Below are positions 36,079 through 37,642 of a stretch of DNA of 49,896 nt, one piece after another. Below the pieces are notes generated by a model that did no database searches, was not told the origin of the DNA, and was given only the letters and a program-made list of their open reading frames with translations. The DNA comes from a virus: the IMG/VR virus record IMGVR_UViG_3300046359_000022, positions 1 to 49,896 of that record; one strand, 5' to 3'. Position 1 is the first letter of the stretch; every line of letters begins with the position of its first letter. Position numbers and translations under genes: made by a program.

Positions 36079-36530
36079 TATAATGTGCTTTTTAATTTTT
36101 CTAGGTACAAAACGAAGTCCATAGCCTCTTGCTTAGCGTGTTCAATCCACTCTAGTGTAGATAATTTGTTATCTTGCAGTGTAGTACCATATTTTTTAAT
36201 ACCAACTTCAGATCTATTTCTTAATTGGTTTACAACTGATTCAACAATAGGATCTGTTTTTACTTCTTGTGGTTCTCTTACTTTTATTCCTTCAATACCA
36301 AATATCACTGAAGCATCTCTCTCTAGCGTATCATAAAAGTTTTCTAAAGTAAGAGCATCTCCATAAGCATTACATACTTCTGACCAGTAGTCCATACCCT
36401 CTTTTGTTTTTGAAAAGTCAAATGCAGCAGCTACTACTGTACTAGCATCTGCTAAACCTCTTTGCTCTATCATTCTTTTAAGAGCTTTCTTTTTTAAATC
36501 TTTCGGTAATTCTTTAATTTTTACAAACAT
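36078..36530 (-). CDS. MazG-like / dNTP pyrophosphohydrolase-like phage protein (150 aa)
   Basis: The C-terminal half (about 98-148) reads QLRNRSEVGIKKYGTTLQDN, then LEWIEHAKQEAMDFVLYLEK. This helical pattern (RS..G..KYG.TL ... L.WL.HA..E.MD...YLEKL) is common in phage proteins related to all-alpha NTP pyrophosphohydrolases. The N-terminal ~75 residues (KKKALKRMIEQRGLADASTV) are a separate helical module that I do not recognise. Such enzymes adjust nucleotide pools; substrate specificity is unknown. It is the first protein gene after the structured RNA, with 11 bp between the RNA's apparent end and the ATG. Confidence 0.55.
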   Translation of the reverse strand: MFVKIKELPKDLKKKALKRMIEQRGLADASTVVAAAFDFSKTKEGMDYWSEVCNAYGDALTLENFYDTLERDASVIFGIEGIKVREPQEVKTDPIVESVVNQLRNRSEVGIKKYGTTLQDNKLSTLEWIEHAKQEAMDFVLYLEKLKSTL

Positions 36531-36557
36531 TTTTAATTTAATTTAGATTAATAATAG

Positions 36558-36693
36558 TGACCGAGACAGGATTCGAACCTGTATTTATATAACTGTTTCT
36601 TTATATTTACGCCTATATAAATCACTTCTTTGTCTATTAATACTGTGCGCGTCTACCACGCCAGGGACATCCCTAGCCTTTCGCCACTCGATC
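36558..36693 (-). ncRNA. tRNA-like 3' module of the large RNA
   Basis: Ends with a perfect T arm (ACAGG-TTCGAAT-CCTGT, 36566-36582) and an acceptor-like strand CTCGGTC plus A. GATCGAG at 36687-36693 pairs with that strand over 7 bp with one G-U. Next comes GGGATGTCCC and a GCGT/ACGC hairpin with GGTAG in the loop. Where the anticodon arm should be there is instead a 9-bp A/U helix (36614-36622 with 36583-36591). The module is 136 nt long and no acceptable anticodon arm is found, so it is not a normal tRNA. It recalls tmRNA geometry, but no tag frame is seen. CCA is not encoded. Confidence 0.5.
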
Positions 36694-37090
36694 ATTTGCG
36701 GTTCGTTGCCTCTTTATACTTGCACCGCTAAACAAGTCTCATAACCGTCGGACAACTACGGAGAGAGTCTACTCTACTACTTTAGTTAGCACCCTTTTAT
36801 TATAGCTTACCGAGTTATCAGTTATGGAGCTTGTATAATAATTAGGGTCACGTAGTTATACTAAATGTAAGGACCTCTTACTAACTACTTGCTGAGAACT
36901 CATTTGTGTTGTTAAGTTCACTTCTATTAAATAGAATTAATTGATAGCTCTTAATATATTCCTTTCTCAAGGGAACAACACATCTACCATTACTGATAGT
37001 ATCTTCATGTAAATTGCGATAGCGATTTAATCTGCCACGTTTTTCTTAGGCTCAATCTATATTTACAAAGGTATTCAATGTTTAACCTAG

Positions 37091-37164
37091 TGGACCTAGT
37101 AGGATTCGAACCTACGACCTTGACATTATGAGTGTCCTGCTCTAACCAACTGAGCTATAAGTCC
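37091..37164 (-). tRNA. tRNA with anticodon CAU (Met, or Ile with lysidine)
   Basis: A complete cloverleaf read from 37164 down to 37091: acceptor GGACTTA with TAGGTCC (one G-U), D arm GCTC-AGTTGGTTA-GAGC, anticodon loop CTCATAA, variable AGGTC, T arm GTAGG-TTCGAAT-CCTAC and discriminator A. The first anticodon-stem pair is a G-A mismatch. CCA is not encoded. The CAU anticodon serves elongator Met or, after lysidine modification, AUA-reading Ile. The body resembles both, and AUA is very frequent in this phage, which favours Ile. It lies inside the large structured RNA, ~125 nt from its apparent 5' end. Confidence 0.92.
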
Positions 37165-37293
37165 ATTACTAGTCTTTCCTAGTAGTCATTTAGGCAGCAC
37201 TGTCCTAAAACGCACTTTAGACGAAAAGGTCTAGGTTTTTGAATTCGCAGAGTTGTGTTTTACCTTTAAAAAACTCCGTAGTGCTTATCATTA

Positions 37294-37301
37294 CAAATGT
37301 A
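37294..37301 (-). promoter_or_regulatory. Promoter -7 element for the large RNA (TACATTTG)
   Basis: On the - strand TACATTTG fits TAnnTTTG and lies between the stop at 37307 and the first RNA helix. A start near 37288 would put the first paired base (37285) at about nucleotide 4 of the transcript. Confidence 0.7.
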
Positions 37302-37306
37302 AAATA

Positions 37307-37642
37307 TTAAATCAATTTATCAAAGATTAATATCTTTTTTTCTCTAACTTCTTCTATGTTCTCTATAAACTTATGTATAAAGTCTGATAGTAAAATAGAA
37401 TCAGCCTCACTAAGAGATGCTATATCTTCAATCATTTGGTTTTTAAAGTTAAGAGAGTTAGTTAACATCTCAGGATCTTCTTTATAAACCCTATGGTAGT
37501 TTTGCATTATATCGCTCTCTAACGCATCTTTAAACATGTTAGCAGTATTCTTTGCTCTACCTTTTAATTTGTACTCATCCATTAACTCTAAAGCTAATTG
37601 AAGAGTGACTAAAAGCTCAATTCCATTCTTTAAATTACTCAT
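37307..37642 (-). CDS. Helical protein of unknown function (111 aa)
   Basis: No family recognised. Nearly all helix: GIELLVTLQLALELMDEYKL, KGRAKNTANMFKDALESDIM, then LSEADSILLSDFIHKFIENI. It has no membrane segment, cysteines or enzyme motif. It overlaps the upstream gene by 8 bases and is the last of a five-gene overlapped set (38996 to 37307) before the RNA's promoter. Probably an early small protein; role unknown. Confidence 0.6.
   Translation of the reverse strand: MSNLKNGIELLVTLQLALELMDEYKLKGRAKNTANMFKDALESDIMQNYHRVYKEDPEMLTNSLNFKNQMIEDIASLSEADSILLSDFIHKFIENIEEVREKKILIFDKLI

Follow-up and report, generated by a model that had tools for sequence, protein, structure and literature searches.

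Does the gene-free stretch at positions 36531–37306 of this viral genome fragment encode one very large structured RNA or several smaller ones, and do they belong to a known class? A preliminary description of the locus had read it as a single RNA of ~750 nt, either of the GOLLD or ROOL kind or of a new one. The window, which is the whole stretch of DNA analysed, comes from IMG/VR as a 49,896-base virus record. It has terminase, portal and structural proteins with matches in PHROG families, and viral contigs are its close protein relatives; from this, together with the occurrence of the core RNA described below in the Crassvirales phage phi14:2, we infer that the window is a fragment of a crAss-like phage genome.

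Organization of the locus

As the preliminary description had noted, the stretch lacks a coding frame: no open reading frame (ORF) of at least 50 amino acids is present within 36531–37306 on either strand; flanking it are a 111-aa gene, which stops at 37307, and a 150-aa gene, which starts at 36530. Its GC content of 36.5% is also higher than the 32.4% of the window, as described. On the minus strand, the parts are ordered as follows:

37294–37324 (−): promoter of the Bacteroidetes type TTTG-N19-TAnnTTTG, here TTTG-N19-TACATTTG, a perfect match
37165–37288 (−): 5' leader, conserved among close relatives in L003 and L005 but not in L002, where another sequence takes its place
37090–37164 (−): canonical tRNA-Met(CAU), called by ARAGORN and by Rfam tRNA (71 bits)
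36786–37087 (−): core RNA (covariance model R1, 115.8 bits, E 3.7e-24), beginning 2 nt past the end of the tRNA-Met call
36694–36785 (−): spacer, non-conserved in comparison with L002
36557–36693 (−): tRNA-Leu-like RNA without anticodon arm

The promoter, the embedded tRNA and the tRNA-like 3' end had all been recognized in the preliminary description. The promoter pattern occurs at three sites in the window versus 1.35 expected and is weak evidence alone, but its −7 box is preserved in L002, L003 and L005. From the promoter position, the transcript would be expected to start near 37288 (−). No credible match to the leader was found in cultured phages, and before homologues were compared, ~395 bases of uncharacterised sequence lay between the tRNA-Met and the tRNA-like element.

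The close relatives differ in which of these parts they carry. The promoter, leader, tRNA-Met and tRNA-like end are present in L005, with the core RNA absent at this place. L003 retains the promoter and leader, followed by a degenerate tRNA-Met and an ORF in place of the tRNA-Met and core RNA. In L002, the tRNA-Met, the middle and the 3' element are present with an additional tRNA-like RNA between them, the leader is different and the spacer 36785–36694 is completely replaced. Because the content of parts differs in this way, the stretch is not one conserved 750-nt RNA, and we reject that reading. Rather, the comparison indicates that the stretch is modular and holds several RNAs (tRNA-Met, core RNA and tRNA-like RNA), a single 750-nt RNA not being the unit of conservation. 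The ORF of L003 (together with the degenerate tRNA-Met, L003 11445–12012) looks, in our reading, like an HNH homing endonuclease. The contig of L003 carries a core RNA elsewhere (L474).

The preliminary description had also drawn a chain of long-range helices through the stretch. Compared with shuffled sequences, the folding energy of the 732-nt whole transcript is not clearly better than chance (z −1.21, with 2/20 shuffles equally good) and that of the conserved core is unremarkable (z −0.30). Since the single-sequence folding energy is not significant, such a chain is not establishable from one sequence; indeed, most of its helices are not the conserved ones. The structure is shown only by comparative covariation, and the MFE structure of the single sequence differs from the conserved fold.

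Structure of the core RNA

The core RNA is composed of conserved blocks (in order, GGUUAAACAUUGAAUACCUUUGUAAAU, AUUUACAUAAAGAUACUAUCAGUAAUGGUAGAUGUGUUGUUCCCUUGAGAAAGGAAU, ACAACACAAAUGAGUUCUCAGCAAGUAGUUA, UAACUACGUGACCCUACUCUUAU and AUAAGAAAGAGGGUGCUAA), between which lie four hypervariable stretches, V1–V4. We propose a structure of 47 pairs from an alignment (A1) of 28 sequences, which is nearly gap-free and, with V1–V4 trimmed to their closing stems, describes the scaffold only. The elements of this structure are:

about 37010–37066 (−): helix P1 (UGUAAAU 37067–37061 / AUUUACA 37014–37008) with hypervariable module V1, from alignment and covariation
36984–36999 (−): hairpin P2, CUAUC-AGUAAU-GGUAG, with both-side changes at 5/5 pairs
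36905–36982 (−): helix P3 (UGUGUUG 36982–36976 / CAACACA 36911–36905), inside which lie hairpin P3a (loop CUUGAGAAAG) and hypervariable module V2
36893–36969 (−): proposed pseudoknot UGAGAA (36969–36964) with UUCUCA (36898–36893), invariant in A1
36852–36888 (−): helix P4 (GUAGUUA / UAACUAC) with hypervariable module V3, from alignment and covariation
36791–36848 (−): helix P5 (ACCC / GGGU), P6 and hypervariable module V4, from alignment, covariation and R1; P6 is shifted by two in the window relative to the family register

Standard pairs account for 89.3% of the proposed pairs in A1, a percentage that is favoured by drawing the structure from the A1 sequences themselves. Both-side changes are observed at 29 of the 47 pairs, and the covariation score of 0.281 compares with 0.109 for shuffled (0/500) and at most 0.092 for slid versions, such that the compensatory counts lie far outside both controls. 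Support by covariation is strongest for helices P2 and P3. Covarying pairs among homologues, the absence of which the preliminary description itself had named as evidence against a structured RNA, are thus found for the core RNA.

The pseudoknot of the preliminary description, GCGGU/ACCGC inside an ACUUG/CAAGU hairpin, sits in the spacer that L002 replaces; it is not conserved, and we reject it. We propose that the pseudoknot supported by the homologues is UGAGAA/UUCUCA instead. The 17-mer used to collect loci covers the 3' strand of this helix, which was therefore not free to vary in A1; in a separate search, UUGGAA/UUCCAA was found in L252 and L008/L542, with two compensating changes, and the pairing is broken in L541.

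Distribution of the core RNA

When the core-RNA middle was compared by BLAST with 50,697 phage records, the matches were confined to Cellulophaga phage phi14:2 and the RefSeq copy of this phage. The 17-mer GAGTTCTCAGCAAGTAG of the core RNA has 99 matches in IMG/VR viral contigs; 98/98 aligned loci match the core-RNA middle in BLAST, and in most the match extends far past the 17-mer. The R1 model finds the core RNA in 95/96 loci, a set that includes 26 training loci, as well as in more divergent copies without the 17-mer (L008, L252, L276 and L537). The family size is a lower bound, as the scans were for exact matches, and the taxonomic spread is read from one cultured phage and the promoter type. 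In 13 Bacteroidota genomes, no R1 match was present among the best 150 candidates scored per genome, which is a weak negative. The core RNA is phage-borne and near tRNAs in the window, L002, L384, L492, L509 and others.

Some loci carry more than one copy, with two head-to-tail R1 matches in L467 (4058–4362 and 4367–4575), L483 and L526, and two weaker matches ~600–800 bases apart in L439, L471, L524, L468 and L514. In phi14:2 (L534 2913–3431), three short opposite-strand CDS are annotated on or beside the core RNA; these are probably spurious, since the RefSeq copy marks features there as removed.

Searches of Rfam 15 with cmscan returned no credible match besides tRNA and tmRNA for the window stretch (to E 5) or for seven homologous loci (to E 0.5). 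In particular, the GOLLD model had no match at these thresholds, and the ROOL model had none in the stretch, the seven loci or the tRNA-like loci. With only tRNA and tmRNA credible at both gathering and permissive thresholds, we reject membership in GOLLD or ROOL. In the open-access literature searched, no earlier account of the core RNA or the tRNA-like RNAs was found. On comparative grounds, the core RNA is a new conserved, covarying and unannotated phage RNA class of tRNA islands. The preliminary description was right in kind, that is, for a structured phage RNA of a tRNA island, and the part of its alternative that stands is the new class, whereas GOLLD and ROOL fall away.

Exchange of the variable modules

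Comparison of the 293 V modules gave 139 same-site sharings and no sharing between different sites. For pairs of core-RNA loci, 77 share exactly one of the four modules, four share two and 15 share three or more. The comparison of loci shows that phages swap core-RNA modules one cassette at a time through an invariant scaffold. When module families and the inserts of tRNA-like RNAs are taken together, both-side changes are seen in 43 cells versus 14.8 in shuffled sets, and unpaired cells number 20 versus 52.4.

The variable loops could also be tolerated expansion segments of an RNA that self-assembles into a multimer or cage like GOLLD and ROOL. The core RNA has the same habit of being phage-borne in or near tRNA islands (PMC12286853 for GOLLD), and tertiary contacts would be in keeping with its pseudoknot and its highly conserved unpaired blocks. 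However, permissive searches gave no Rfam GOLLD or ROOL match, the core of ~300 nt is small when many GOLLD RNAs exceed 800 nt (PMC12286853), and the modules do not drift freely but are retained and swapped; we regard self-assembly as unlikely, though still a serious competitor.

One hairpin module appears to connect the core RNA with the tRNA-like RNA of the window:

36584–36621 (−): hairpin module in the insert of the tRNA-like RNA, matching V4 of L485/L489/L532

The match spans 36 nt at 83% identity (E 1.2e-6; among 30 shuffled sets, the lowest value was 5e-5). The hairpin keeps the loop GGCGUAAA...AAGAAA.AGU, while its stem pairs switch, C-G becoming U-A and G-C becoming A-U. This link between the two scaffolds is suggestive, being one case and not proof. 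An antisense match between a module and a tRNA-like insert is a single 14-nt match and was disregarded.

Could the modules instead be selfish hairpin elements that insert into the loops of structured RNAs without benefit to the phage? Their location in terminal loops and the apparent presence of one hairpin family in both the core RNA and a tRNA-like RNA would agree with such elements. Free insertion is nevertheless disfavoured, because sharing restricted to the same site, as observed in the core RNA, fits homologous exchange through the scaffold, and we consider the selfish reading quite improbable.

A tRNA-Leu-like RNA without anticodon arm

The tRNA-like RNA of the window has an acceptor stem GAUCGAG/CUCGGUC (7/7 pairs), a perfect T arm ACAGG-UUCGAAU-CCUGU (5/5 stem pairs) and a Leu-type D arm, with A14, A15-U48 and A73 all present. 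It scores 27.9 bits with the Rfam tRNA model, just under the threshold of 29, and ARAGORN without introns does not call it. No credible anticodon arm (5-bp stem, 7-nt loop) was found in a constrained fold. An additional hairpin extends the D loop:

36659–36676 (−): extra D-loop hairpin GCUAGGGA-UG-UCCCUGGC, with both-side stem changes in relatives

A search pattern consisting of a Leu D arm, more than 40 nt and a T arm has at least 120 matches in viral contigs and 29 in 84,980 bacterial and archaeal genomes, some of the latter being plain or repeat-expanded tRNA-Leu. The acceptor stem is absent from the pattern, yet 91 of the 115 unique viral matches listed have 7/7 acceptor pairs; in 71 distinct acceptor combinations, pairing is observed in 87.9% of cells versus 53.9% when shuffled. 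An independent set (AGTCAGG) was selected for acceptor and T arm only and comprises, among the matches listed, 284 sequences of 60–192 nt, including a few ordinary tRNAs with an anticodon arm. Within this set, again among the matches listed, A14 is present in 96%, A15 in 93%, U48 in 83% and A73 in 89%, none of them imposed. The combination of A15 with U48 is found in 80% of the set, compared with 44% of canonical non-Leu/non-Ser tRNAs and 91% of tRNA-Leu from the same loci. Acceptor-stem covariation and Leu identity bases are shown for the family by these comparisons, and the tRNA-like RNAs are, as judged from sequence, a large phage family in which a tRNA-Leu shell has its anticodon and variable region replaced by diverse structured inserts. 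Leucylation of E. coli tRNA-Leu persists when its anticodon and variable arms are removed, the key elements being A73, A15-U48, G18G19 and A20a (PMC9976931).

The same inserts and D-loop modules can be seen with different acceptors, and the inserts fold modestly better than shuffled sequences (mean z −0.70, s.e. 0.08, 198 inserts). One record (L260) has ten tRNA-like RNAs among about 17 tRNAs. Members, mostly unannotated, are present in the cultured Enterococcus phages phiFL2A, IME197, EH-TP1 and vB_Edu_21C1 and in the thermophilic phage D6E; weak Mycobacterium and Synechococcus BLAST matches were excluded. R1 matches were found in 3/39 shell-rich records (best 70 candidates scored), and the strict shell pattern in 0/24 R1 records, though looser scans show shells beside R1.

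We note several variants. An insert-less form of 51 nt, with acceptor, short D part and T arm, is found in phiFL2A (L217 2983–3033) and at the corresponding site of IME197 (L221); it lies downstream of the gene for the ArpU regulator and within ~800 non-coding bases that have only a tRNA match in Rfam. Elements of ~155 nt in L309, L133, L196 and L342, in which G73 and acceptors like TGTCAGA accompany a long, well-conserved insert (AUAUGGGUUGACCACAAAGCCGGC...), are probably a separate class. A long D-loop module ACAACCCCGUUC...ACUACGGGGU is common to L268, L242 and L194, which differ in anticodon-side inserts and acceptors. The inserts of L094, L190, L276, L298 and L398 form one family that resembles an H-type pseudoknot whose stems change (ACUAUG/CAUAGU or ACUUGG/CCAAGU crossing GGAGU/ACUCC).

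We consider it very improbable that ordinary tRNA-Leu genes with small spliced introns underlie the tRNA-like RNAs. ARAGORN fits some of them as intron-bearing tRNAs, and group I introns occur in some cyanobacterial tRNAs, but the inserts are mostly 40–70 nt and far below group I intron size, neither an Rfam intron match nor a common anticodon stem was seen, and the lengths in the AGTCAGG set are continuous among the matches listed, some too short for a cloverleaf. Group I and group II introns are likewise rejected for the stretch and the seven homologous loci, which gave no Rfam intron match. Least probable of all is that the stretch is merely a degenerate tRNA island with a working tRNA-Met, a decayed tRNA-Leu and filler, for which loss and replacement in relatives (including the degenerate tRNA-Met of L003) and ordinary folding energies could be cited, but which is refuted as a full account by the covariation of the core RNA and of the acceptors of the tRNA-like family, and which is opposed by hundreds of intact members in other phages.

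A proposed mechanism

We suggest that the locus may be a non-coding operon in which tRNA-punctuated release provides a scaffold RNA displaying variable modules, most likely for binding host factors, a proposal to which we give slightly less than even weight. One transcript from near 37288 would carry the tRNA-Met, core RNA and tRNA-Leu-like RNA, and host RNase P and tRNase Z would cut at tRNA and tRNA-like ends (‘tRNA punctuation’), thereby freeing the core RNA with its 5' end a few bases past the tRNA-Met. The core RNA would then be a stable scaffold, built of ~seven short helices and a single pseudoknot, on which four hypervariable hairpin modules are displayed; recombination within the invariant blocks would exchange these modules singly. 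By the same logic, the tRNA-like RNA would be a second scaffold with its own swappable insert, unable to decode but retaining what RNase P, tRNase Z, the CCA enzyme and LeuRS need. The single transcript, its processing and the leucylation of the tRNA-like RNA are what we infer; the extra D-loop hairpin might hinder leucylation.

We would expect release by tRNA processing enzymes in the window, since tRNA or tRNA-like ends adjoin the core RNA in some flanks. A tRNA or tRNA-like 3' end lies 4–7 nt upstream of the core RNA in 5/59 distinct upstream flanks, including that of the window, a tRNA-like RNA starts just downstream in about 6/60 flanks, and a TAnnTTTG box is present shortly upstream in three other flanks. 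Most copies are without a close tRNA or tRNA-like neighbour, and punctuation is one arrangement of the core RNA, not the rule.

Host factors would be the most likely binding partners of the modules, whose diversity would be the mark of an arms race. The diversity and exchange of modules suggest binding to fast-changing partners, from which a counter-defence role can be proposed, speculatively. Hypervariability alone can stem from tolerance. Ro60 (TROVE, PF05731) is encoded in only 2/41 related phage records and is rejected as a general partner; a TROVE (Ro60-like) protein is encoded in L545–L547 (records G020 and G007), two phage records rich in tRNA-like RNAs. More broadly, two unrelated scaffolds, the core RNA and the anticodon-less tRNA-Leu shells, might display a shared recombining pool of hypervariable structured modules, probably against host defences or RNA-binding proteins, in Bacteroidetes phages and beyond. 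We hold this wider idea as tentative and somewhat doubtful; if true, it would be the RNA equivalent of variable cassettes for receptor binding or antigens, and categorically new.

Implications

With covariation behind it, about a hundred phage records that carry it and no entry in Rfam 15, the core RNA class provides a new target within the small set of large phage RNAs, one that is unannotated, or overlaid by spurious ORFs, in the cultured phage phi14:2. Module swapping offers a handle not known for GOLLD and ROOL, in that one loop is exchangeable and the phenotype readable. The tRNA-Leu shells predict leucylation of RNAs unable to decode and may account for odd tRNA calls in phage tRNA arrays. 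Cultured systems are available in phi14:2 with Cellulophaga baltica for the core RNA and in Enterococcus phages for the tRNA-like RNAs. Together, the tRNA-Leu look-alikes and the core RNA point to a hidden layer of phage RNA machinery.

Comparison with known systems

Bacterial Y RNA and YrlA are examples of tRNA mimicry in a non-coding RNA. The tRNA-like RNA differs in having free acceptor ends and a replaced anticodon side, and membership is rejected in view of the lack of an Rfam match and of the few records with Ro60. tmRNA has alanine-type ends and a tag reading frame; like the tRNA-like RNA, it has tRNA-like ends around a non-tRNA structured part and no anticodon arm, and it is common in phages, near the core RNA in some loci. 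The tRNA-like RNA of the window, in contrast, has Leu-type ends and a short insert, and this identity is rejected for the stretch, where neither an Rfam tmRNA match nor an ARAGORN tmRNA with a tag frame was found.

ROOL (RF03087) is, like the core RNA, a phage or prophage RNA near tRNA islands with pseudoknots, but the core RNA is smaller and does not match its covariance model. GOLLD (RF01998) is similarly a large structured phage RNA with conserved and variable parts that lies near tRNAs, sometimes downstream of tRNA-Met, as for GOLLD env-38, and the GOLLD linker can itself contain tRNAs (PMC12286853); the core RNA differs in its size of about 300 nt and its lack of a match to the GOLLD model. 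The closest likeness of the tRNA-like RNA is with tRNA-Leu, with which it shares the acceptor, the D arm with A14, A15 and GG, the T arm, U48 and A73. It differs from tRNA-Leu in that the anticodon arm and the regular variable arm are absent, and an insert of about 10–200 nt, mostly 40–70 nt, is present, sometimes together with a second insert in the D loop.
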